DNA from: Microbacteriaceae bacterium X2B
GTDB taxonomy: Bacteria > Actinomycetota > Actinomycetes > Actinomycetales > Microbacteriaceae
Direction of reading: 5' to 3'
Assembly (NCBI GenBank): GCA_005502445.1
Contig: SCPB01000024.1
Location: forward strand, 1 to 34,857
DNA: 34,857 nt
Each line of letters begins with the position of its first letter. Positions within the stretch are counted from its first letter, which is position 1. Under the pieces are notes generated by a model, which saw only the letters and a list, made by a program, of their open reading frames with translations, searched no databases and was not told the origin of the DNA. Below, piece by piece: positions 11,477 to 34,231 of the stretch. The position numbers and the translations under genes were made by a program.

Positions 11477-11593
11477 GGGAACTCCCTCGTTCTGCGCTCT
11501 CGCGAGCGCGGCGCCTTGTGGGCGACGGCCACGATACTCGGGCGGCAGAGGAAATGCTAGGGGTTCCTTGTATCTGCGTTCGAGGGCGGAAAC

Positions 11594-11620
11594 GAGAAAA
11601 GCCCCCGCCGAAGCGAGGGC
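11594..11620 (-). terminator. Original tRNA-Arg terminator, now separated from its gene
   Basis: GCCCCCGC (11601-11608) pairs with GCGAGGGC (11613-11620) around a CGAA loop. On the minus strand the stem is followed by TTTTCTC. It lies just past the 3' end of the tRNA-Arg fragment, as expected for the terminator of the tRNA before the element inserted. Confidence 0.7.
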
Positions 11621-11628
11621 CTTCCGAT

Positions 11629-11678
11629 CTGCGCGCCCGAAGGGACTCGAACCCCTAACCTTCTGATCCGTAGTCAGA
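11629..11678. repeat. attL: 50-bp direct repeat holding the 3' part of tRNA-Arg
   Basis: This segment is identical over 50 bp to 18769-18818. It covers the 3' part of tRNA-Arg(ACG), from the 5' arm of the anticodon stem to the acceptor end (tRNA remnant 11632-11678), plus 3 nt beyond. It lacks the D-arm half and so is not a gene. Together with the identical copy at the right it defines the ends of the integrative element. Confidence 0.92.
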
Positions 11679-11836
11679 AGAACGCCGATCGCGAGTCCCT
11701 CGAATTTGCACTGCGTCCCCGTCGATCCGCCAGATTCTCGGCCCAGAGGGCCAGGCATGAGACGGCTTCGAGTGCATGAATGAGGATGCTAGATTGCACG
11801 CAGATTGCAGCGTGCAATCCGAAGGAGACGACTGCC
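11679..11836. other. Left inner end of the element: spacer and integrase upstream region
   Basis: Together with attL and the etfB upstream region this makes about 360 bases without a gene (11477-11836). It contains the arm-type repeats and a possible integrase promoter: TTCGAG at 11767-11772, 17 nt, then TAGATT at 11790-11795. The -10 overlaps the first arm repeat, so integrase binding could repress its own transcription. The etfB-side part (11477-11593) shows no clear promoter hexamers. Confidence 0.45.
11792..11819. promoter_or_regulatory. Integrase arm-type sites, left end
   Basis: GATTGCACG (11792-11800) is followed after 2 nt by GATTGCA (11803-11809), giving an 11-bp period. TGCAATC (11813-11819) then forms a perfect inverted repeat with the second copy. 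The same motif recurs in direct orientation with the same 11-bp period near the right end (18691-18710). This is the usual layout of integrase arm-binding sites. Confidence 0.6.
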
Positions 11837-13078
11837 ATGACAAGCAGCGGTAAGCGCAAGTACAAAGCGAGGCCGGAATCATGGGGGGCTCTGCGGAAGC
11901 TCCCAAGCGGTCGTTACCAAGCGAGCTACCTCCACGAGGGTGAGCGTTACAACGCACCCCACACGTTCGACGCCATGGGTGACGCTCGCGCATGGCTGGC
12001 CTCCGTGCGCTCGGATATCCAGCGGGGACGCTGGCGTGACCCTCGTAGTGCTCAGGCCGAGACCTTTGAGAATTACGCAGCCGTGTGGCTCTCTCAACGT
12101 GTGTCAGTGAAAGGCGAACCGCTTCGCCCTCGAACACGCACGGAATACACGCGGCAACTCAGCCGCGGCCTGTCTGAGTTCGGCTCCGACGATATCCAGA
12201 AGATCACTCCGGCCCGGGTGCGCGCCTGGCATTCCGGGCGCCTGACGGAGGCTGGGGCCACTGCCGCCGGCCGGGAAGCCGCGCTCCTTCGGGCCATCCT
12301 TGGGACTGCCGTCACGGATGGAATCATCGACCGAAATCCAGTCGACTCGAAGTTGACGCGCTCTAGCAGTGGGCGCTCGCATCGCCCGCCGACGCTGGAA
12401 GAACTCAGCGTCATCGTGGACCACTTCGCCGAGAACGAGCCGCGACTACGACTAGCTGTACTTCTCGCTGCGTATGGAGGACTTCGCATGTCGGAGTGGC
12501 GCGCGCTGCGCCGTCGAGATCTCACGATCGACGGCGATCGCGTGATCGTTGCAGTCACCCGTCAAGCACAGAGAGTGACTGGGGTGGGATGGATCACGGG
12601 ACCACCAAAGTCCGCCGAAGGTCTGCGCGTAGTGCCGCTGCCCGCCGCGCTCGGGGGCGATGTACGAGAGCACCTGGCCTCCCACGTTGGACGGTTCCCC
12701 GACGACCTCCTGTTCGCCCCGCTAAGACGCTCGGAGTTTCTGGACGACTCACAATTCAATGCGGCTTGGAACGCAGCTCGAGAGGCCGCTGGCGTCCGCG
12801 TGCGGCATGGCGACGGCTGGGTGAGCGTCGTCCGCGAGCATGACTTGCGACACTTCGCACTTTCCTTCTACGCCGCGACCGGCGCCACGCTCGCGGAACT
12901 CAAGGCGCGCGCTGGTCACTCCACAAACCAGGCCGCGATGATCTACCAACATGCCGTCGTGGACCGCGCGGCTGAACTGGCTGACGCCATGCCCCTCCTG
13001 CCAGTGGCGCCGAAGCGAGTGGTGCAGCTCAACTCGACCACCGCGCCTGACGGCACAGCCGCGGCCGGCCCCATTTAA
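11837..13078 (+). CDS. int: Tyrosine recombinase / site-specific integrase
   Basis: This 413-aa phage-type integrase carries out recombination between attP on the element and attB in tRNA-Arg. The N-terminus (about 1-70) is a basic arm-binding region, followed by a SAM-like core-binding domain (about 75-175). The catalytic domain has R217 in GGLRMSEWRALR, a probable lysine K258, H335 and R338 in HDLRHF, H361 in AGHSTNQAAM and the nucleophile Y370 in IYQHA. All catalytic positions are intact. ATG 11837 is preferred over the upstream start at 11780 because AAGGAG lies about 10 nt before it and the upstream part is arm-site DNA. It is the gene nearest attL, as usual for tRNA islands. Confidence 0.95.
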   Translation: MTSSGKRKYKARPESWGALRKLPSGRYQASYLHEGERYNAPHTFDAMGDARAWLASVRSDIQRGRWRDPRSAQAETFENYAAVWLSQRVSVKGEPLRPRTRTEYTRQLSRGLSEFGSDDIQKITPARVRAWHSGRLTEAGATAAGREAALLRAILGTAVTDGIIDRNPVDSKLTRSSSGRSHRPPTLEELSVIVDHFAENEPRLRLAVLLAAYGGLRMSEWRALRRRDLTIDGDRVIVAVTRQAQRVTGVGWITGPPKSAEGLRVVPLPAALGGDVREHLASHVGRFPDDLLFAPLRRSEFLDDSQFNAAWNAAREAAGVRVRHGDGWVSVVREHDLRHFALSFYAATGATLAELKARAGHSTNQAAMIYQHAVVDRAAELADAMPLLPVAPKRVVQLNSTTAPDGTAAAGPI

Positions 13079-13113
13079 CGGGCTAGCTCGGCGAACTCGC
13101 TTTGACCAGCCAC

Positions 13114-13137
13114 TGTCGCGCCGGCGGCAGCGCGACA
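13114..13137. terminator. Hairpin after the integrase gene
   Basis: TGTCGCGC (13114-13121) and GCGCGACA (13130-13137) form a perfect 8-bp stem with an 8-nt loop, 36 nt after the integrase stop. There is no T-run, so termination is only a guess. Confidence 0.4.
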
Positions 13138-13170
13138 CATGGACTATTTGGGGTGCTCCGCATGCATTGG

Positions 13171-13248
13171 TTGACATTTCTGGGTGTTTCCTGAGAACCG
13201 GGCTACTCTCGTCCCGAGAAGGAGAAAGGCCGGGCGGGAACCCGGCCT
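13171..13248 (+). promoter_or_regulatory. Excisionase upstream region: -35-like box and 5' leader hairpin
   Basis: TTGACA at 13171-13176 is a perfect -35 hexamer, but no matching -10 lies at 17 nt. TACTCT at 13204-13209 has -10 character but wrong spacing. Further on AGGCCGGG (13227-13234) pairs with CCCGGCCT (13241-13248) around CGGGAA. If transcribed, this strong hairpin would sit in the leader of the excisionase mRNA. Confidence 0.35.
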
Positions 13249-13303
13249 AACTCGAAACCGGAGCCGTTTCAGCGGCACCAGACCAGACCAGAAAGAGGTC
13301 CTC

Positions 13304-13507
13304 GTGTTGAGAGAGCAAAGTAACACCATCGCCGTACGTCAGTACACCGACAGCGTAAAAACGATGGCCGAACGCCATGGCGTCGACCCGTCCACCGTAC
13401 GACGGTGGGCCGCCACCGGCGTGGTTAGTGCGATACGGATCGGCAAGTCGACTCTGCGAATCGACCCCGACTCCTTGAAAGCCGAGCCGATCGGGTTCGC
13501 GGCATGA
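13304..13507 (+). CDS. Excisionase-like helix-turn-helix DNA-binding protein
   Basis: This is a small 67-aa protein of the MerR-like/excisionase HTH type. VKTMAERHGVDPSTVRRWAATGVVSAIRIG forms the helix-turn-helix and wing, and RIDPDSL is the usual end of this fold. In an integrative element it is likely the recombination directionality factor (Xis) that bends attL/attR DNA for excision, or a regulator of the element. GTG 13304 is chosen because AGAGG lies 5-6 nt upstream; TTG 13307 is an alternative. The frame is open further upstream, but that part is the leader hairpin. The stop overlaps the next ATG (ATGA). Confidence 0.75.
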   Translation: MLREQSNTIAVRQYTDSVKTMAERHGVDPSTVRRWAATGVVSAIRIGKSTLRIDPDSLKAEPIGFAA

Positions 13508-14316
13508 GCTGTCAGAGTCAACCGCAGGAGAGGCACGGAGGCAGTGGGCGGGGCTCGCAGCGCGGGCTGTGCCTCAATCACGCCAGTCAGCTCGCTGAGA
13601 CACTTCCTCCGGAACCAACCGCGCCGACCTTGCCCCATCGGAGCGAGTGGTTCGAGAGCGGGCGGAGCCTCCACACGGAAGAGTGGGACGATGCGGCACT
13701 GAAGGCTGAGTACGACCGGCTTTGGACCGACTACAGGGCCGACTCCGCCGCCTGGGCCACGGAGTACACCGGCTGGAGCGAGACCATCATCGGAGCAATC
13801 TTGGATGCACCGAGAGGTTACTGCTGTCCCACGCTGACAGTGGGCGGGGAGTTGAAGCACGGCCCAGTCGCCAACTGGACACGGCTCGGGCCGGGGTGTC
13901 GAGAGGACGCGGCCGATGCCGCCAGCATCGCGTTCCCCAGCCTGATTCCGACTCTCTCGGCCTCCGTAAAGACGCCAGCTCGAACGTCGTCTGCGATGGA
14001 GGTGGCGCACCACGGGAACGCTCTTCTGCACGCCGCGTGGAACTCGATTGTGAACACGTGGCCGGTGTGCTCTAGCTGCCCGACGCCTGCTCCGCCGAAG
14101 CAGAAGGATGACGAGAAGGTTCGCGCATCCGTGCTGGACGCTCTCGCCGCGCACGGCGGCGGACCCCTCAGCTCGAGCGAGCTGTGTGCGCTCGGCATAA
14201 AGGGACTCGAGAAGGAGTCCGTCAAAGGAATCATGGACGCGATGGTGTCGGAAAACAGTGTCACCTTGACGAGGAGAGGTCCGGCCAAGTTGTACGCCCT
14301 CCCGCCAGTCGCGTAG
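13504..14316 (+). CDS. Unknown 270-aa protein of the integrative element
   Basis: I do not recognise a family. The ATG overlaps the excisionase stop (ATGA), so it is translationally coupled and likely real. The N-terminal 35 residues are polar and look disordered. The middle has aromatic-rich helices (EYDRLWTDYRADSAAWATEYTGWSE in the genome frame, about residues 69-93) and cysteines (YCC, GCRE, CSSCP) that could bind metal or be structural. The last 65 residues (RASVLDALAAHGGGPLSSSE and what follows) resemble a winged-helix DNA-binding domain in pattern. It could be a regulator or a DNA-associated accessory protein, but no function is assigned. Confidence 0.6.
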   Translation: MSCQSQPQERHGGSGRGSQRGLCLNHASQLAETLPPEPTAPTLPHRSEWFESGRSLHTEEWDDAALKAEYDRLWTDYRADSAAWATEYTGWSETIIGAILDAPRGYCCPTLTVGGELKHGPVANWTRLGPGCREDAADAASIAFPSLIPTLSASVKTPARTSSAMEVAHHGNALLHAAWNSIVNTWPVCSSCPTPAPPKQKDDEKVRASVLDALAAHGGGPLSSSELCALGIKGLEKESVKGIMDAMVSENSVTLTRRGPAKLYALPPVA

Positions 14317-14319
14317 GGC

Positions 14320-14353
14320 GAGCGGCCCCGTGTTCCCGGGCGCGGGGTCGCTC
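14320..14353 (+). terminator. Terminator-like hairpin after the 270-aa gene
   Basis: GAGCGGCCCCG (14320-14330) pairs with CGGGGTCGCTC (14343-14353) with one G-U pair, 3 nt after the stop codon. A pyrimidine-rich stretch (TCTCTTCTGTTTCTTCTTC) follows a few bases later. It probably ends the excisionase operon transcript. Confidence 0.55.
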
Positions 14354-14361
14354 GTAGATCT

Positions 14362-14408
14362 CTTCTGTTTCTTCTTCACCCTGTAAGGGTGAGAAGAAGA
14401 AGCAGAAG
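14362..14408. repeat. Long 47-nt hairpin with polypurine/polypyrimidine arms
   Basis: The left arm begins CTTCTGTTTCTTCTTC and ends ACCCT; the right arm begins AGGGTGAG and ends AAGCAGAAG. The arms pair over about 21 bp with one G-U and a 2-nt bulge around a GTA loop. It sits directly after another hairpin. It could be a second terminator serving both strands or a protein-binding site. Confidence 0.5.
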
Positions 14409-14515
14409 GAGGGTCAGACGAAGTCGCGGCCGGCAGAAGGGGCACCCGCGACGGTCGCACGGGGCCTCCTTGCCCCGGGTGGGCGACTACTTGGGAGATC
14501 CGGGGCTCAGCGCGG

Positions 14516-15921
14516 AGTGGCGTCCGGCAGAGTGTACGGCTCCCGGTGAGCGTGTCGCTGCGAACGTAGCGACGGTCACCGCGTGATCCTTCGAGAGAAC
14601 CGCTAAATCCATCTCGAAAGGACCCCCGACGATGACCGTCCCTCCCAGTATCGACCCTGCCCGCTTCCTCGAGGAGCACCTCGCGCAGGCCTCCCCGGAT
14701 CTGTTGCGGCAGATGCTCACCACCTTCATCAACACCCTGCTCTCCGCCGACGCGGACAGCGTCTGCGGCGCCGCTTACGGCACCGTCTCGGACGACCGCA
14801 CCAATCGCCGGAACGGGTATCGGCACCGCGACTTCGACACCCGGACCGGAACGATCGACGTCGCGATCCCGAAGCTGCGGCAGGGCTCCTACTTCCCGGA
14901 TTGGCTGCTGGAGCGGCGTCGCCGCGCCGAACGCGCCCTGACCTCGGTGGTGGCGACCTGCTACCTGCTCGGCGTCTCCACCCGCCGCATGGACGGCCTC
15001 GTCCAGTCGCTGGGGATCACCGGGTTGTCGAAGTCGCAGGTGTCGGAGATGGCCAAAGACCTCGACGAGCACGTCGCCGAGTTCCGCTCCCGGCCGCTGG
15101 ATGCCGGCCCTTACACGTTCGTCACCGCCGACGCGTTGACGATGAAGGTCCGCGAGGGCGGCCGGGTGGTGAACGTGCACGTCCTGGTGGCGACCGGGGT
15201 CAACGCGGACGGGCACCGGGAGATCCTCGGCGTCCAGGTCGCCAGTGCTGAGGACGGCGCCGGCTGGCTGGGCTTCTTCCGCGACCTGGTCGCCCGGGGC
15301 CTTTCCGGGGTCAAGCTGGTCACCTCCGACGCCCACGCCGGCCTGGTCGCCGCGATCGGCGCGACCCTGCCCGGCGCTGCCTGGCAACGCTGCCGCACCC
15401 ACTACGCCGCGAACCTGATGGCGGTGACGCCGAAGAGCTCCTGGCCGTGGGTGAGAACGCTGCTGCACTCCGTCTACGACCAACCCGACAAAGAAGCCGT
15501 GCACGCCCAGTTCGACCGGGTCCTCGATGCCCTGGAGCACAAACTGCCGCGCAGTTTCCAGCACCTCGAGGCCGCCCGAGAGGAGATCCTCGCCTTCACC
15601 GTCTTCCCGAAGGAGATCTGGCGGCAGATCTGGTCCAACAACCCCAACGAGCGCCTCAACCGCGAGATCCGGCGCCGCACCGACGTCGTCGGCATCTTCC
15701 CCGACCGCACCTCGATCATCCGCCTCGTCGGCGCGGTCCTTGCCGAGCAGCACGACGAATGGGCCGAAGCCCGCCGCTATCTCGGCCTCGACGTCCTCGC
15801 CAAGAGCCAGACCGTCGGCAGCCAACCCGAGGAGGTGAGCACCCCCGAACTTCACGCCCTCAGCGCATAACCCCACAACGAAGGATCACCGAACCGATAC
15901 ACCACCACCGCGGACTTGACC
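14516..15921 (+). mobile_element. IS256-family insertion sequence (1406 bp)
   Basis: The ends are set by an 8-bp direct repeat CAGCGCGG at 14508-14515 and 15922-15929. Removing the IS plus one copy restores a reading frame in the small minus-strand gene. The ends carry imperfect inverted repeats: the left has GTCCG at 14522, TGTA and CGGTGA up to 14549, and the right complement has GTCCG from 15915, TGTA and CGGTGA down to 15886. A single intact transposase gene fills it. Its GC content and codon use are higher than in the rest of the island, so it arrived separately. Confidence 0.8.
14632..15870 (+). CDS. IS256-family transposase (mutator type)
   Basis: This 412-aa DDE transposase is of the family's normal length. 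The N-terminal DNA-binding part includes RRNGYRHRDFDTRTGTIDVAIPKLRQGSYFP, a hallmark of the family. Catalytic acidic residues fit D167 (VTADAL), D233 (TSDAHAGL) and E340 (NNPNERLNREIRRR). WQRCRTHYAANLM is the family's conserved block after the second aspartate. The ATG has AAAGGA about 9 nt upstream. No frameshift or stop is seen, so the enzyme looks active. A very long antisense frame (13339-15876) is a shadow. Confidence 0.95.
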   Translation: MTVPPSIDPARFLEEHLAQASPDLLRQMLTTFINTLLSADADSVCGAAYGTVSDDRTNRRNGYRHRDFDTRTGTIDVAIPKLRQGSYFPDWLLERRRRAERALTSVVATCYLLGVSTRRMDGLVQSLGITGLSKSQVSEMAKDLDEHVAEFRSRPLDAGPYTFVTADALTMKVREGGRVVNVHVLVATGVNADGHREILGVQVASAEDGAGWLGFFRDLVARGLSGVKLVTSDAHAGLVAAIGATLPGAAWQRCRTHYAANLMAVTPKSSWPWVRTLLHSVYDQPDKEAVHAQFDRVLDALEHKLPRSFQHLEAAREEILAFTVFPKEIWRQIWSNNPNERLNREIRRRTDVVGIFPDRTSIIRLVGAVLAEQHDEWAEARRYLGLDVLAKSQTVGSQPEEVSTPELHALSA

Positions 15922-16116
15922 CAGCGCGGCGAGAAACTTTAGGAACTTCCAGACCGCAAACACGCCGCCTTCCACAGCCCACTTGAAAGAAGACCGGTCG
16001 GGAGCGGGGGTGTTCTGCCAGAGCACTACCCCGATCTTCAACCTCTCAGCGGTCGCATAGATCAGGGCGATCTGCGCGTCCGTGAGCCGTCCCGTTGTGT
16101 AGAACCTTCTCGGCAT
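15886..16116 (-). CDS. Small unknown gene with its 3' end replaced by the IS
   Basis: The ATG at 16116 has a strong ribosome site (AGGAGGG about 10 nt upstream), so it is probably a true gene. The protein now reads MPRRFYTTGRLTDAQIALIY at its start, through a hydrophobic stretch (AVWKFLKFLAAL), and ends GQVRGGGVSVR, with the last residues coming from IS DNA (76 aa). Without the IS it would end AALSPGSPK, a 71-aa protein whose last codons lie at 14487-14515. Only about six residues are changed, so function may survive. I recognise no family. It is divergent from the endonuclease gene with about 98 nt between. Confidence 0.6.
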   Translation of the reverse strand: MPRRFYTTGRLTDAQIALIYATAERLKIGVVLWQNTPAPDRSSFKWAVEGGVFAVWKFLKFLAALGQVRGGGVSVR

Positions 16117-16202
16117 ATCTGCGCACCCTCCTGTGCTCGCGCATCACGGTACTCGTTCTTATCCTCACGAGGGGCTCAAGTCTCGGCGTCGGAGGTTCGC
16201 AG

Positions 16203-16217
16203 TAGTGTGACCGTGTG
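16203..16217 (+). promoter_or_regulatory. Leaderless promoter -10 box for the restriction cassette
   Basis: TAGTGT (16203-16208) matches TANNNT and lies 6 nt before GTG 16215, with no ribosome site between. The cassette transcript probably begins at the start codon. Confidence 0.5.
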
Positions 16218-17018
16218 TCCACCTCCCGCGATGATGACTACCGAGAGCTGCTACTCGCGCCTCTGCTGACGTCCGCCCTGTACCTGCCGAAAATGGGTGG
16301 CGCTGACGCGGTCGACTTCCACGGTTTCCAAGAGCTCTACGGAGTCGACCCGTTCTATCACTGGATGGGCCTCGACACTGAGCTGATGTATGCGGCGCAC
16401 AAGGCCGCAGGTGGGATGACCTCCGTCTACCGACAACTTGGAATCGGCGCGGAGAGGCTCTTCCGCGCACTGCTCAAAGACCAACTCGGGCTATCCGCTT
16501 CGCAGGTCGTGTGGAGCTACACAGTGGTCGAGGAATCGACGACGGGCGGCTCTGCCCGCTCTCACACGCTCACGCTCGACGGTCGCGCAGAGATGTCCGA
16601 GATAGTGGACGCGGCGGCACGGGCGCGCGTCGGTGAATGGGTGGCTGCGCAAGCCGCCCGCCTCGACATCACGATTCCACTGCACGGCGCCGTGTTCGAA
16701 GTCCGACAGGGTTACAAGTCCGCCGACTCGAAGCGGCAGAACGCGGACATCGCAAATGCGACTCAGGCATTGGGACACGGGTATCTTCCCGTGCTCGCTG
16801 TCATGAGCACTCAGATCAACGCAGTAGTTCACGAGCGATACAACGCGAACAACTGGGCAGTACTTCTCGGGCACACTTCGGACGACCCAATCTCGAGCAC
16901 CTTCGCGTTCTCGAAGCAGGTGCTCGGTTACGACCTCGTCGCATTCTTCGAGCGCAACACCGAACTACTTCGAGCCCAACTCGTCGATGTACTTGCCGCG
17001 CTATTGGAGGCAAAATGA
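16215..17018 (+). CDS. Putative type II restriction endonuclease
   Basis: This 267-aa protein has its stop overlapping the methyltransferase start (ATGA). Position and size suggest the nuclease of a type II restriction-modification system. A possible PD-(D/E)XK-like active site is E162...K168 in AVFEVRQGYKSADSKRQNAD, with further basic residues K173 and R174. This follows a beta-strand-like segment and precedes the helix ANATQALGHG. It might belong to the ApaLI-like endonuclease family, which I cannot confirm from memory. The recognition site is unknown. Start GTG 16215 is set by the -10 box 6 nt before. If it is not the nuclease, it would be another methyltransferase partner. Confidence 0.6.
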   Translation: MSTSRDDDYRELLLAPLLTSALYLPKMGGADAVDFHGFQELYGVDPFYHWMGLDTELMYAAHKAAGGMTSVYRQLGIGAERLFRALLKDQLGLSASQVVWSYTVVEESTTGGSARSHTLTLDGRAEMSEIVDAAARARVGEWVAAQAARLDITIPLHGAVFEVRQGYKSADSKRQNADIANATQALGHGYLPVLAVMSTQINAVVHERYNANNWAVLLGHTSDDPISSTFAFSKQVLGYDLVAFFERNTELLRAQLVDVLAALLEAK

Positions 17019-18244
17019 CCCTGGCTCCCTCACGCCAGAACAAGCACCTGACCTTCCGAGCCAACATGGGTGTGGGCCGCCATGGATGGCTGAGGCTTAC
17101 GCCTGCCTACTCCGTTGGTCTTGTGCGTGACAGAGTCCAGGCTCTACCTCCGGGGTCCACAATCCTCGACCCGTTCTCGGGTACCGGCACGACGCCTCTG
17201 GCCGCTGCTGAACTCGGCCAGACGGGGATCGCGGTCGACGTGAACCCATTCCTGCAATGGCTCGGCACCGCCAAGTTTGCAAACTACTCTGACGCGAATC
17301 TCCTGGCCGCTCGCGCTGCGGTGCAGCGGATCGTCGTGGACGCCAAGCGGCTTGGCAACAATCACGATCTTTGGACTCCGAATCTCTTCAAGATCGAGAA
17401 GTGGTGGAGTGAGTCCAACCTGGCCGTGCTCCGAAACGTGCGGGCCGGAATCGACGCGGAGCCGCTGGGACCCACGCGGGACTTACTGGAGGTCGCTCTG
17501 TGTCGTGTGCTGATTGCCCTTAGTAACGCTGCTTTCAATCACCAATCGATGAGCTTCAAGGAGGGCGACGCCTCCGCGTTCGACGACCTCCAGTTCGCCC
17601 GCGGGCTGCAGACCTACGAGGATGCTGCGCACTCGATCATCGAGTCGGCCGCCCTAGACCTCGAAGGCTCCGCGCGCGTGCTTCTCGGCGACTCTCGAGC
17701 CCTGCCGGAGGACATTGGTCTAGTAGACGCCGTTGTCACCTCGCCGCCCTACGTGAACCGGATGAGCTACATCCGCGAGCTCCGCCCCTACATGTACTGG
17801 ACGCGCCACCTGGACGTTGCCACCGACGCCAGCGAGCTGGATTGGCGCGCTATCGGGGGCACCTGGGGTACGGCAACGAGCAAACTCAACTCCTGGCGGC
17901 CTTCGGAAACCGGCACACCAGTCGACGCCGAGATGGACGACGTTCGGCGGCTGATCGCAGCAAATGGGTCTAAGAGCGGCCCGCTTCTGGCGAACTACGT
18001 CGGAAAGTACTTTCACGACATGTGGGATCACTTTCGCAGCGTCTCAGGCCACGTCCGCTCTGGCGGCACGGTCTCCTACATCATCGGAAACTCCACGTTC
18101 TCAGGCCACATCGTCCCGGCTGAGGTCTGGTACGGCTCGATGCTTGAGGCAGCCGGATTCGAGCAGGTCAAGATCGAGCAGATCCGCAAGCGCAACTCGA
18201 ACAAGGCGCTCTACGAGTACGACGTTACGGCCATCAAGCCGTGA
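17015..18244 (+). CDS. DNA methyltransferase (amino-methyltransferase, TSPPY type)
   Basis: This 409-aa S-adenosylmethionine-dependent enzyme methylates an exocyclic amino group of C (N4) or A (N6). Motif I is LDPFSGTGTT (51-60), followed by the acidic SAM-ribose strand GIAVDVNP. The catalytic motif IV is TSPPY (242-246); a serine there is common in N4-cytosine enzymes. The order I then IV is opposite to the usual beta-class order for SPPY enzymes. The region between them (about 100-230) or after TSPPY may hold target recognition. The ATG follows GGAGG and overlaps the endonuclease stop. It protects self DNA against the neighbouring nuclease, by inference. Confidence 0.88.
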   Translation: MTLAPSRQNKHLTFRANMGVGRHGWLRLTPAYSVGLVRDRVQALPPGSTILDPFSGTGTTPLAAAELGQTGIAVDVNPFLQWLGTAKFANYSDANLLAARAAVQRIVVDAKRLGNNHDLWTPNLFKIEKWWSESNLAVLRNVRAGIDAEPLGPTRDLLEVALCRVLIALSNAAFNHQSMSFKEGDASAFDDLQFARGLQTYEDAAHSIIESAALDLEGSARVLLGDSRALPEDIGLVDAVVTSPPYVNRMSYIRELRPYMYWTRHLDVATDASELDWRAIGGTWGTATSKLNSWRPSETGTPVDAEMDDVRRLIAANGSKSGPLLANYVGKYFHDMWDHFRSVSGHVRSGGTVSYIIGNSTFSGHIVPAEVWYGSMLEAAGFEQVKIEQIRKRNSNKALYEYDVTAIKP

Positions 18245-18516
18245 CCTTGGTCCGTGCAGCCCACGGCGTGGAGTTGCACGCTGATGGGGTCTCGTACTGG
18301 GTGACACGCGACGGCGAGGAAATTGTCCGCACCCGCGTGGAGACTCTGGCAAACATCACATTCGACGAGGCCGCTAGCGACGCCGACCCTCGACGGGACG
18401 CCTTGGCGAAAGAGCGTGCGTTCTACGACATGCAACGCTCGCGCTCGGAATCGTTTTCCCGACGCGCAAGCAAGGCGCGCAAGTCCGGCGGCAAGGGCGG
18501 GCGCGGCGGGGTTTAG
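18241..18516 (+). CDS. Unknown 91-aa protein, third gene of the restriction cassette
   Basis: GTG 18241 overlaps the methyltransferase stop (GTGA), so it is coupled to that gene. The first half (VRAAHGVELHADGVSYWVTR, then DGEEIVRTRVETLANITF) looks like a compact beta-rich fold. Residues 50-70 are charged and helical (DALAKERAFYDMQRSRSES). The tail RRASKARKSGGKGGRGG is strongly basic and Gly-rich and may bind nucleic acid. No family is recognised. It may modulate the nuclease or methyltransferase or act as a controller, but it has no helix-turn-helix and controllers usually precede the nuclease. Function unassigned. Confidence 0.65.
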   Translation: MTLVRAAHGVELHADGVSYWVTRDGEEIVRTRVETLANITFDEAASDADPRRDALAKERAFYDMQRSRSESFSRRASKARKSGGKGGRGGV

Positions 18517-18547
18517 GCCACTCGATCTGCGTCGCGCCCCGCTTGCC
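18490..18547 (+). terminator. Possible hairpin at the end of the restriction cassette
   Basis: GGCAAGGGCGGGCGCG (18490-18505) can pair with CGCGCCCCGCTTGCC (18533-18547) with small gaps and a 27-nt loop that includes the stop codon. No T-run follows. The remaining bases to 18690 show no gene. Confidence 0.3.
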
Positions 18548-18690
18548 CCGCTATGGGCGGCTTTGGTGGAAGCTCCTCCACAGATCTGCCCCGACCTGTT
18601 TCGAATCCCCGCCCGGTCGCCCGCGAGGTCTTTCGGCGGGGTGAGGGTCACACCTCTATTCGCGCGCGAGAGAGGGAGATTCTTGCGCCG

Positions 18691-18710
18691 AATTGCACGA
18701 AGATTGCACG
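18691..18710. promoter_or_regulatory. Integrase arm-type sites, right end
   Basis: AATTGCACG (18691-18699) and GATTGCACG (18702-18710) repeat with an 11-bp period, the same motif and period as at 11792-11809. They lie 58 bp inside attR. Confidence 0.6.
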
Positions 18711-18727
18711 AGTTGAGCTGGACAAAC

Positions 18728-18766
18728 GGAAGGCCTGATCAAAATGTAACTCTGATCAGGCCTTCC
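18728..18766 (-). terminator. Element-borne terminator for tRNA-Arg
   Basis: GGAAGGCCTGATCA (18728-18741) and TGATCAGGCCTTCC (18753-18766) form a perfect 14-bp stem with an 11-nt loop, directly beyond the tRNA 3' end. On the minus strand it is followed by GTTTG. It would replace the original terminator left behind at attL. Confidence 0.6.
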
Positions 18767-18768
18767 CG

Positions 18769-18818
18769 CTGCGCGCCCGAAGGGACTCGAACCCCTAACC
18801 TTCTGATCCGTAGTCAGA
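18769..18818. repeat. attR: 50-bp direct repeat within tRNA-Arg
   Basis: This segment is identical to 11629-11678. Here the repeat joins the chromosomal 5' half of the tRNA, so the gene is complete. The repeat starts at the anticodon stem, which puts the strand exchange at or after the anticodon loop, as usual for this class of tRNA integrases. Confidence 0.92.
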
Positions 18819-18844
18819 TGCTCTATCCATTGAGCTACGGGCGC
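18772..18844 (-). tRNA. tRNA-Arg (anticodon ACG)
   Basis: This is a complete 73-nt cloverleaf: acceptor GCGCCCG/CGGGCGC, D-stem GCTC/GAGC, anticodon stem TCTGA/TCAGA with loop CTACGGA (ACG, read as ICG for CGN codons), and T-loop TTCGAGT. CCA is not encoded. It is the insertion site of the 7.1-kb element, which supplies its 3' half. A -10-like TATGCT lies at 18873-18868 on the minus strand. Confidence 0.95.
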
Positions 18845-33024: not shown

Positions 33025-33040
33025 TAAGGTTACCGACATG
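33025..33040 (+). promoter_or_regulatory. Leaderless promoter -10 box for the ATPase gene
   Basis: TAAGGT (33025-33030) is exactly 7 nt before ATG 33038. It matches TANNNT, and there is no ribosome site. Confidence 0.5.
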
Positions 33041-34231
33041 AGTGAACCTAATCCCTTCCGGCCCGGCGCCGGTCGGGTGCCGCCCGTTCTCGCTGGACGA
33101 GACGCCATCATGTCGGTGGTCGATTCGGTGATGCGCGACATCGTCGGCAGCGGCGAGGGCGATCGGCCGATAGTCGTTTCAGGGCTCCGCGGAGTCGGGA
33201 AGACAGTTCTCCTCAACGAGTTCGTGCGCCGCGCTCGCGAATCTCGGCGATGGGTGGCGATCAAGCTCGAGGCCGTGAACGGCAGGTCACTGGCATCGCA
33301 ATTGGCGCAAGCGCTGCACACAGAGATGCGTAAACAGATGTCTCTCGGCGACGTCGCCGTCGCGAAGCTGCGACGTGCGGCTTCCGCCTTGCGGTCGTTC
33401 CAGCTCAAGGTCGATCCGACCGGTACATACAGCTTCGGCTTTGATGTGCAGCCACTGGCTGGGGTCGCCGACAGCGGACAATTGGAGGTCGACCTCCGGG
33501 AGCTTCTCGAAGAACTGGCGGCGGCGCTTCGCGAACTCGACACAGCGCTGCTCCTCGCAATCGATGAATTGCAGGAGGCGCCCGCCGCCGACTTGAACGC
33601 TCTCAATGTCGCTCTGCACGACATCGGGCAAGACGCCCATCCTGCGCCAATTCTTTTCATCGGAACAGGGCTGCCGTCGCTACCCGCCGTCCTTGCCGAC
33701 GCCACCAGTTACGCCGAGCGTCTGTATGACTATCGAGCGCTCGACCTGCTCACGGACAGCGAAACGCGGGTCGCGCTTTCTGCACCCACCGGTGACCGCG
33801 GAGTCAGCTGGGACGTTGCCGCACTCGACGAGGCAGTCGCCTCGGTGAGCGGCTATCCGTACTTCGCCCAGGCCTGCGGAAAGCATGTCTGGGCTTCCCG
33901 CGCGGTCGCCGACCGCATCTCGGCGGAAGACGCGCGAATCGGCATAGAACTGGCGCGCGACGAGGTGGATCGCGGACTCTATCAATCCCGCTGGGAACGA
34001 GCCACTCCTGCTCAGCGCGAGGTGATGAAGGCGATGGCGCTAGACGCGGGTCGCCCATCGTCGATCCAAGACCTGGTCGCACGCACGGGGAAGAAGCGCA
34101 CGAGCGATCTGTCGGTCTCGCGGCGCGAACTCATTCGGAACGGGCATGTCTATGCGCCCGACCGCGGCTATCTCTCATTCACAGTCCCGGGCATGGACGA
34201 TTACATCGAACGCCGAGGATTCGACATCTAG
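33038..34231 (+). CDS. AAA-type ATPase with C-terminal winged helix (Orc1/Cdc6- or STAND-like)
   Basis: This 397-aa protein has Walker A GLRGVGKTVLLNEF (about 49-62) and Walker B LLLAIDELQE (about 172-181). A segment IGTGLPSLPAVLADA follows, like a sensor 1 strand. The C-terminus (ATPAQREVMKAMALDAGRPS, then RTGKKRTSDLSVSRRELIRNG) looks like a winged helix that may bind DNA. Such single-protein ATPases are common in accessory DNA and resemble archaeal ATPases or Orc1/Cdc6. Codon use is less GC-extreme than in its neighbours and the upstream region is AT-rich, which suggests transfer. No partner gene is adjacent, and no function can be assigned beyond ATP use. Confidence 0.82.
   Translation: MSEPNPFRPGAGRVPPVLAGRDAIMSVVDSVMRDIVGSGEGDRPIVVSGLRGVGKTVLLNEFVRRARESRRWVAIKLEAVNGRSLASQLAQALHTEMRKQMSLGDVAVAKLRRAASALRSFQLKVDPTGTYSFGFDVQPLAGVADSGQLEVDLRELLEELAAALRELDTALLLAIDELQEAPAADLNALNVALHDIGQDAHPAPILFIGTGLPSLPAVLADATSYAERLYDYRALDLLTDSETRVALSAPTGDRGVSWDVAALDEAVASVSGYPYFAQACGKHVWASRAVADRISAEDARIGIELARDEVDRGLYQSRWERATPAQREVMKAMALDAGRPSSIQDLVARTGKKRTSDLSVSRRELIRNGHVYAPDRGYLSFTVPGMDDYIERRGFDI

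Follow-up and report, generated by a model that had tools for sequence, protein, structure and literature searches.

A 34,857-bp stretch of DNA from Microbacteriaceae bacterium X2B (assembly GCA_005502445.1, contig SCPB01000024.1, positions 1–34,857), called the window below, contained an element at 11629–18818, at the 3′ part of a tRNA-Arg(ACG) gene. As shown in Table 1, this element carried genes for a tyrosine integrase, a small excisionase-like helix-turn-helix (HTH) protein, a 270-aa protein (u270), a type II restriction endonuclease, a DNA methyltransferase and a 91-aa protein (u91), lay between two copies of a 50-bp core, and was interrupted by an insertion sequence (IS) of the IS256 family. 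All of its predicted genes were on the plus strand except a small open reading frame (ORF). The element is very probably an integrative genomic island targeted to tRNA-Arg(ACG), with a tyrosine integrase, a type II restriction-modification (R-M) cargo and related islands at the same site in other genomes. No paper on this island was found in a literature search.

Table 1. Positions in the window of the features of the element and of its target tRNA
Feature	Position	Strand	Remarks
Native tRNA-Arg terminator hairpin	11588–11628	-	-23.5 kcal/mol, z -4.19; moved to far end by insertion
attL copy of 50-bp core (tRNA-Arg fragment)	11629–11678		100% identity to 18769–18818
Arm-type repeat TGCAATCNNNGTGCAAT, integrase end	11793–11809	-	exact
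Tyrosine integrase, 413 aa	11837–13078	+	PF00589 52.8 bits (cut-off 27.1); phrog_1 170.7 bits
Excisionase-like small HTH protein	13304–13507	+	TIGR01764 24.1 bits (cut-off 28.8); HTH_17 22 bits (cut-off 27); both under cut-off
u270, 270 aa	13504–14316	+	start overlaps excisionase-like gene; no curated family match above cut-off
Target duplication CAGCGCGG, left	14508–14515		8 bp
IS256-family insertion sequence, 1,406 bp	14516–15921	+	transposase ORF 14632–15870
Small ORF	15886–16116	-	no family match
Target duplication CAGCGCGG, right	15922–15929		8 bp
Type II restriction endonuclease, 267 aa	16215–17018	+	PADLOC PDLC03512 360.7 bits
Type II DNA methyltransferase, 409 aa	17015–18244	+	MTase_II best 95.1 bits; PF01555 31.6 bits (cut-off 26.7); ATGA overlap with endonuclease gene
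u91, 91 aa, third gene	18241–18516	+	overlaps methyltransferase stop; tail GGKGGRGGV
Arm-type repeat TGCAATCNNNGTGCAAT, tRNA end	18692–18708	-	exact
Element-borne hairpin directly after tRNA	18722–18770	-	-30.5 kcal/mol, z -9.22; none of 200 shuffles equally stable
attR copy of 50-bp core, within intact tRNA	18769–18818		
tRNA-Arg(ACG), intact, integration target	18771–18844	-	

Ends of the element and its empty site

The two copies of the core were identical and their starts were 7,140 bp apart. The identity could not be extended by even one base on either flank, and a chance match of 50 bp was negligible (of the order of 1e-25). By computation the core corresponded to nucleotides 27–74 of the tRNA-Arg plus 2 bp; nucleotide 27 is the first base of the anticodon stem, so the core begins at that stem. 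The G+C content was 64.1% between the cores versus 71.3% outside them. An earlier note on this DNA had drawn the exact limits of the element from the perfect repeat, with a whole tRNA at one end, a fragment at the other and a core starting at the anticodon stem, and all of these points held.

The earlier note had also predicted that related genomes would have an empty tRNA-Arg site. Twenty-six genomes of the genus were compared (labels G001–G024 etc., the window's own included), not every one being classed singly for the empty site. An element-free allele, in which position 11678 was joined to 18819 with a single copy of the core, was clear in three of them. In G024 the joined query matched at 97.2% over 1,986 bp, of which 102 bp lay left of the join; a second comparison gave 97.2% over 1,636 bp. 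In G002 a match of 1,631 bp at 88.5% reached from etfB across the join, ~1.5 kb of it lying left of the join; the tRNA gene and etfB are therefore direct neighbours there, as they would be in the window minus the element. The match in G007 was 94.2% over 171 bp. Join-spanning matches in G013 and G005 were left uncounted because they reached just 15 bp past the core on the left, while the window's own right end matches trivially 10 bp past the core. In G024 the tRNA-Arg and etfB genes were separated by 1.07 kb containing an ORF of 344 aa (L109:8961–9995), which neither the window nor G002 has.

The arm-type repeat TGCAATCNNNGTGCAAT occurred at two exact sites in the window, versus none expected from 100 shuffles, even when one mismatch was allowed. 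Seven exact sites were found in the 26 genomes, all at element ends and confined to four genomes, and the reversed pattern gave none. Each end of the G021 element had one exact site nearby, each of the two contigs holding the ends of the G001 element had one, and the element of G016 had one exact site and another with two mismatches. These paired repeats are probably arm-binding sites of the integrase. A paired direct-repeat motif in attP is described for another element group in part of PMC10111431.

The element also carried a hairpin of its own directly after the tRNA gene. Hairpins with a similar stem followed the tRNA in G016 (-27.8 kcal/mol) and G001 (-26.5 kcal/mol); that of the G021 element was not strong (-13.2 kcal/mol, z -1.0). 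Three of the four related elements thus had a strong hairpin in the place of the displaced native terminator. In the empty site of G024 the native hairpin directly followed the tRNA, and it did so with small differences in G007 and G002. The hairpin, the arm-type repeats and the nested IS256-family insertion had not been named in the earlier note.

Related islands at the same tRNA

The tRNA-Arg site was clearly occupied in five of the 26 genomes, the window's included, and was uncertain in G017, where the tRNA gene was split over contigs. Displaced partial copies of the core marked the other four islands, namely those of G016 (~32 kb), G021 (6.6 kb), G023 (49 kb) and G001, whose ends lay on two contigs. 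In the G016 island (L142/L143; G016:C1:1273421–1305957) the cargo lay between the excisionase-like gene and the integrase gene, and included an MmeI-like type IIG protein (1081.7 bits), an Avs3a-like protein (1090.7 bits) and, by eye, genes resembling those for sugar uptake and metabolism. The G021 element encoded a RiboL-PSP-HEPN protein, and the G001 element a gene pair that we take to resemble a SocA-type antitoxin and its partner. The G023 island (L147/L148; G023:C6:152859–201824) was of another kind. Only a 36-nt tRNA fragment lay at its far end, its own hairpin followed the tRNA (-23.5 kcal/mol), the native hairpin stood at the far core copy, and no integrase match was found in the portions compared. 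The related islands share the site and the end design and differ in cargo.

Integrases at the same tRNA were 67% (G016), 55% (G001) and 54% (G021) identical to that of the window, and the excisionase-like gene had relatives in the same three elements. At E 1e-60, relatives of the integrase were present in eight of 396 genomes of the order, its own included. Seven integrase loci from other genera contained no tRNA-Arg(ACG) gene and no piece longer than 13 bp, so the same integration site was not shown in them; one had an arm-like site with one mismatch (L168) and one a different tRNA-Arg gene.

Among the loci tested, the G016 element alone encoded a relative of u270 (30% identity over 251 aa), adjacent to the excisionase-like gene. 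Its place in the G001 and G021 elements was held by another protein, alike by eye between those two. A search of 299 genomes of the family with the single sequence returned just its own copy, and a two-row alignment found matches in four of 398 genomes at E 0.001, namely its own and three partial ones of ~60 positions. No relative of u270 was found on plasmids. Relatives of the integrase, u270 and u91 were also not found in viral_contigs, none being confirmed there for u270 or u91. The structure model of u270 was poor (mean predicted local distance difference test score, pLDDT, 51.1), except for a C-terminal block with pLDDT 70–85, predicted to form helices followed by two strands in a winged-helix-like arrangement.

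Cargo of the element

The adjacent endonuclease and methyltransferase genes formed the gene arrangement of a type II R-M system. Relatives of the endonuclease were found on 208 stretches in genome_contigs, of which the best 80 were taken as a locus set and spanned many phyla. In 78 of the 80 loci a methyltransferase relative lay downstream of the endonuclease on the same strand, with a spacing between a 13-bp overlap and a 58-bp gap; the exceptions were L038 (none found) and L081 (matched only at the locus's far end). In an alignment of 46 rows (the window and 45 loci from the set of 80; a stop codon in the stretch excluded L052 and L061, and the remainder were simply not selected), the endonuclease motifs FEVRQGYK and DSKRQN were invariant except at one position. 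The endonuclease model was good (pLDDT 88.2), and no sequence relative was found among solved structures. In a structure comparison aimed at a PD-(D/E)XK or other nuclease fold, three restriction enzymes (AgeI, MspJI and PspGI) made up the top four Foldseek matches, all of them weak; the best was AgeI at E 0.052, and none of the 281 matches reached E <= 0.001. Searches of 72,556 plasmid and 50,697 phage records at E 1e-5 gave no relative of the endonuclease, although its family is spread over many phyla.

The u91 gene was present in three of the 92 loci searched, the window being one. It also stood behind the methyltransferase gene in Mycobacterium celatum (L011:11045–11341, 46% identity) and in Micromonospora (L013:11045–11323, 52%), and the C-terminal GGKGGRGGV was identical in all three actinobacteria. 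It was absent from L012, L014 and L015, where the endonucleases were 58–62% identical, and is therefore optional. Relatives of u91 were found neither on plasmids nor on phages, and among 394 genomes of the class the only copy was its own. Compared with known type II R-M systems (PADLOC PDLC03512 and MTase_II), the sequence family and gene order are common and the window's operon differs by the extra 91-aa gene. We regard u91 as a candidate accessory component of this type II R-M family, which is widely distributed.

The insertion sequence lay between u270 and the R-M operon. Its transposase was complete (NF033543 332.9 bits, cut-off 150; Transposase_mut 479.7 bits), and other copies, both in the genus and on plasmids, matched from ~14512–14517 to 15921. 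The host genome contained one more full-length copy, on contig C34 (82% identity), besides a match of 41 bases on contig C7. Target duplications of the IS256 family are typically 8–9 bp. The insertion resembled the family in its transposase and its 8-bp duplication, and nothing notable set it apart except poorly matched terminal inverted repeats. It is later than the element, whose core-to-core length without the insertion and one duplication would be 5,726 bp. The small ORF on the minus strand was probably cut by it, because the last ~12 codons fall inside the insertion; no tblastn match to this ORF was found in the loci tested.

The earlier note had described the cargo as restriction-modification plus three unknown proteins. 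The R-M part was borne out, the endonuclease belonging to a recognised family (PDLC03512). The products without a family match were u270, u91 and the small minus-strand ORF, the IS256-family transposase being of a recognised family. Outside the element, a gene of lower G+C content for an apparent ATPase was seen at 33038–34231, close to the contig end.

Origin of the island and comparison with known systems

Three marks of a tRNA-targeted island were found here: an intact tyrosine integrase, direct repeats of which one restores the tRNA, and an element-free allele. The island is real, of a known kind and recently mobile-looking. A tyrosine integrase would have inserted a circle into the part of tRNA-Arg(ACG) from the anticodon stem to the 3′ end, and an identical copy of this part, carried on the circle, would keep the tRNA gene whole. 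The integrase probably binds the paired repeats at both ends, with excision probably directed by the small HTH protein. The element's hairpin beside the tRNA would replace the native terminator, now 7 kb off. As expected of its class, the type II R-M system is likely to restrict phage or plasmid DNA entering the cell, and it may also hold the island in the host by killing cells that lose the R-M island.

Several observations weigh against an island of this kind. The cargo of G001 and parts of that of G021 were not clearly defensive, and the same whole element was present in no other genome among those searched. The G021 element had no strong hairpin and G016 had an arm repeat with two mismatches, so neither feature is universal. 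The excisionase-like gene fell short of both curated cut-offs; the gene proposed in the earlier note is real, but weakly scored. The note's claim of an intact integrase stood without change.

A rival reading, in which part of the tRNA was simply duplicated and no mobile element is involved, would account for the repeat alone. This is almost certainly wrong: it was ruled out by the element-free alleles of G024, G002 and G007 in the same genus, and the lower G+C content, the integrase and the arm repeats also speak against it. It is rather unlikely that the island is an immobile remnant, integrated once in the past and now a chromosomal R-M locus fixed by the IS insertion. Such a remnant would fit the insertion inside the element, the failure to recognise transfer genes in it and the lack of a second host of the whole element in the searches made, but the insertion lies outside the integrase gene, the R-M genes and the two cores and arm repeats, all of which are intact.

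The earlier note had left the choice between a mobilised satellite and a minimal defence island. The second is a fair description. As the note had stated of replication, conjugation and phage structural genes, family scans of the element recognised no terminase, capsid, primase, relaxase, replication or conjugation gene; no gene supporting a satellite was found, and that status is unsupported because packaging, conjugation and replication genes were not recognised. A reduced phage satellite, resembling a phage-inducible chromosomal island (PICI), whose packaging and replication genes were lost or never present and which is moved by a helper phage, would fit what was found in M. celatum. There, L011:8434–18120 contained the same three-gene R-M operon, a related integrase (40%) and an excisionase-like gene (38%), and also TerS (74.4 bits) and a DNA polymerase/primase-like protein (332.3 bits), all bounded by 21-bp repeats of the 3′ end of tRNA-Val. 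We nevertheless consider a satellite improbable for the window's element, in which TerS and a primase were not recognised and whose integrase, u270 and u91 had no relatives in viral_contigs. The L011 element itself looks like a satellite, and because it carries TerS and a primase beside the same R-M operon, a satellite origin is possible for a relative of the window's element. Carriage of this operon in a satellite-like element also suggests that the R-M-u91 operon travels with different integrative vehicles. A paired repeat, CGTGCACAATACGTGCACAA, was seen close to both ends of the L011 element.

The tRNA-Arg(ACG) island with a type II R-M cargo may be taken one step further, to a proposal that is conceivable though on the whole doubtful: u91 would act through its invariant tail as a working third part of the R-M system in some actinobacteria, for instance by damping restriction during establishment of the island, and the islands at this tRNA would be a clade with a fixed end design (paired arm repeats and terminator replacement) and swapped defence cargo. 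With its exact limits and its empty site, this small, testable island, together with related islands whose ends agree and whose cargo differs, opens two questions to study: how the sequence and the transcription end of a tRNA gene are both preserved when an element enters it, and how one address exchanges its defence genes.

With PICI-like phage satellites and the L011 element, the island has in common an integrase, an excisionase-like gene, a tRNA att site and an R-M operon with u91, and it differs in that neither a terminase small subunit nor a primase was recognised in it. With integrative and mobilizable elements (IMEs) carrying type II R-M systems it shares an integrase at a tRNA and the R-M genes themselves, which in part of PMC5704250 are considered a possible addiction system of IMEs. 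Unlike IMEs, integrative and conjugative elements (ICEs) and actinomycete ICEs (AICEs), it has no recognised relaxase, mobilisation or conjugation gene. The closest likeness in design is to tRNA-targeted islands: a core from the 3′ part of the tRNA, replacement of that tRNA part, an integrase near one end, a gene resembling that of a directional factor, and variable cargo. Replacement sequence in attP at tRNA genes is also described in part of PMC10111431. The present elements differ from such islands in that no transfer genes were recognised and that three of the four add a replacement terminator hairpin.

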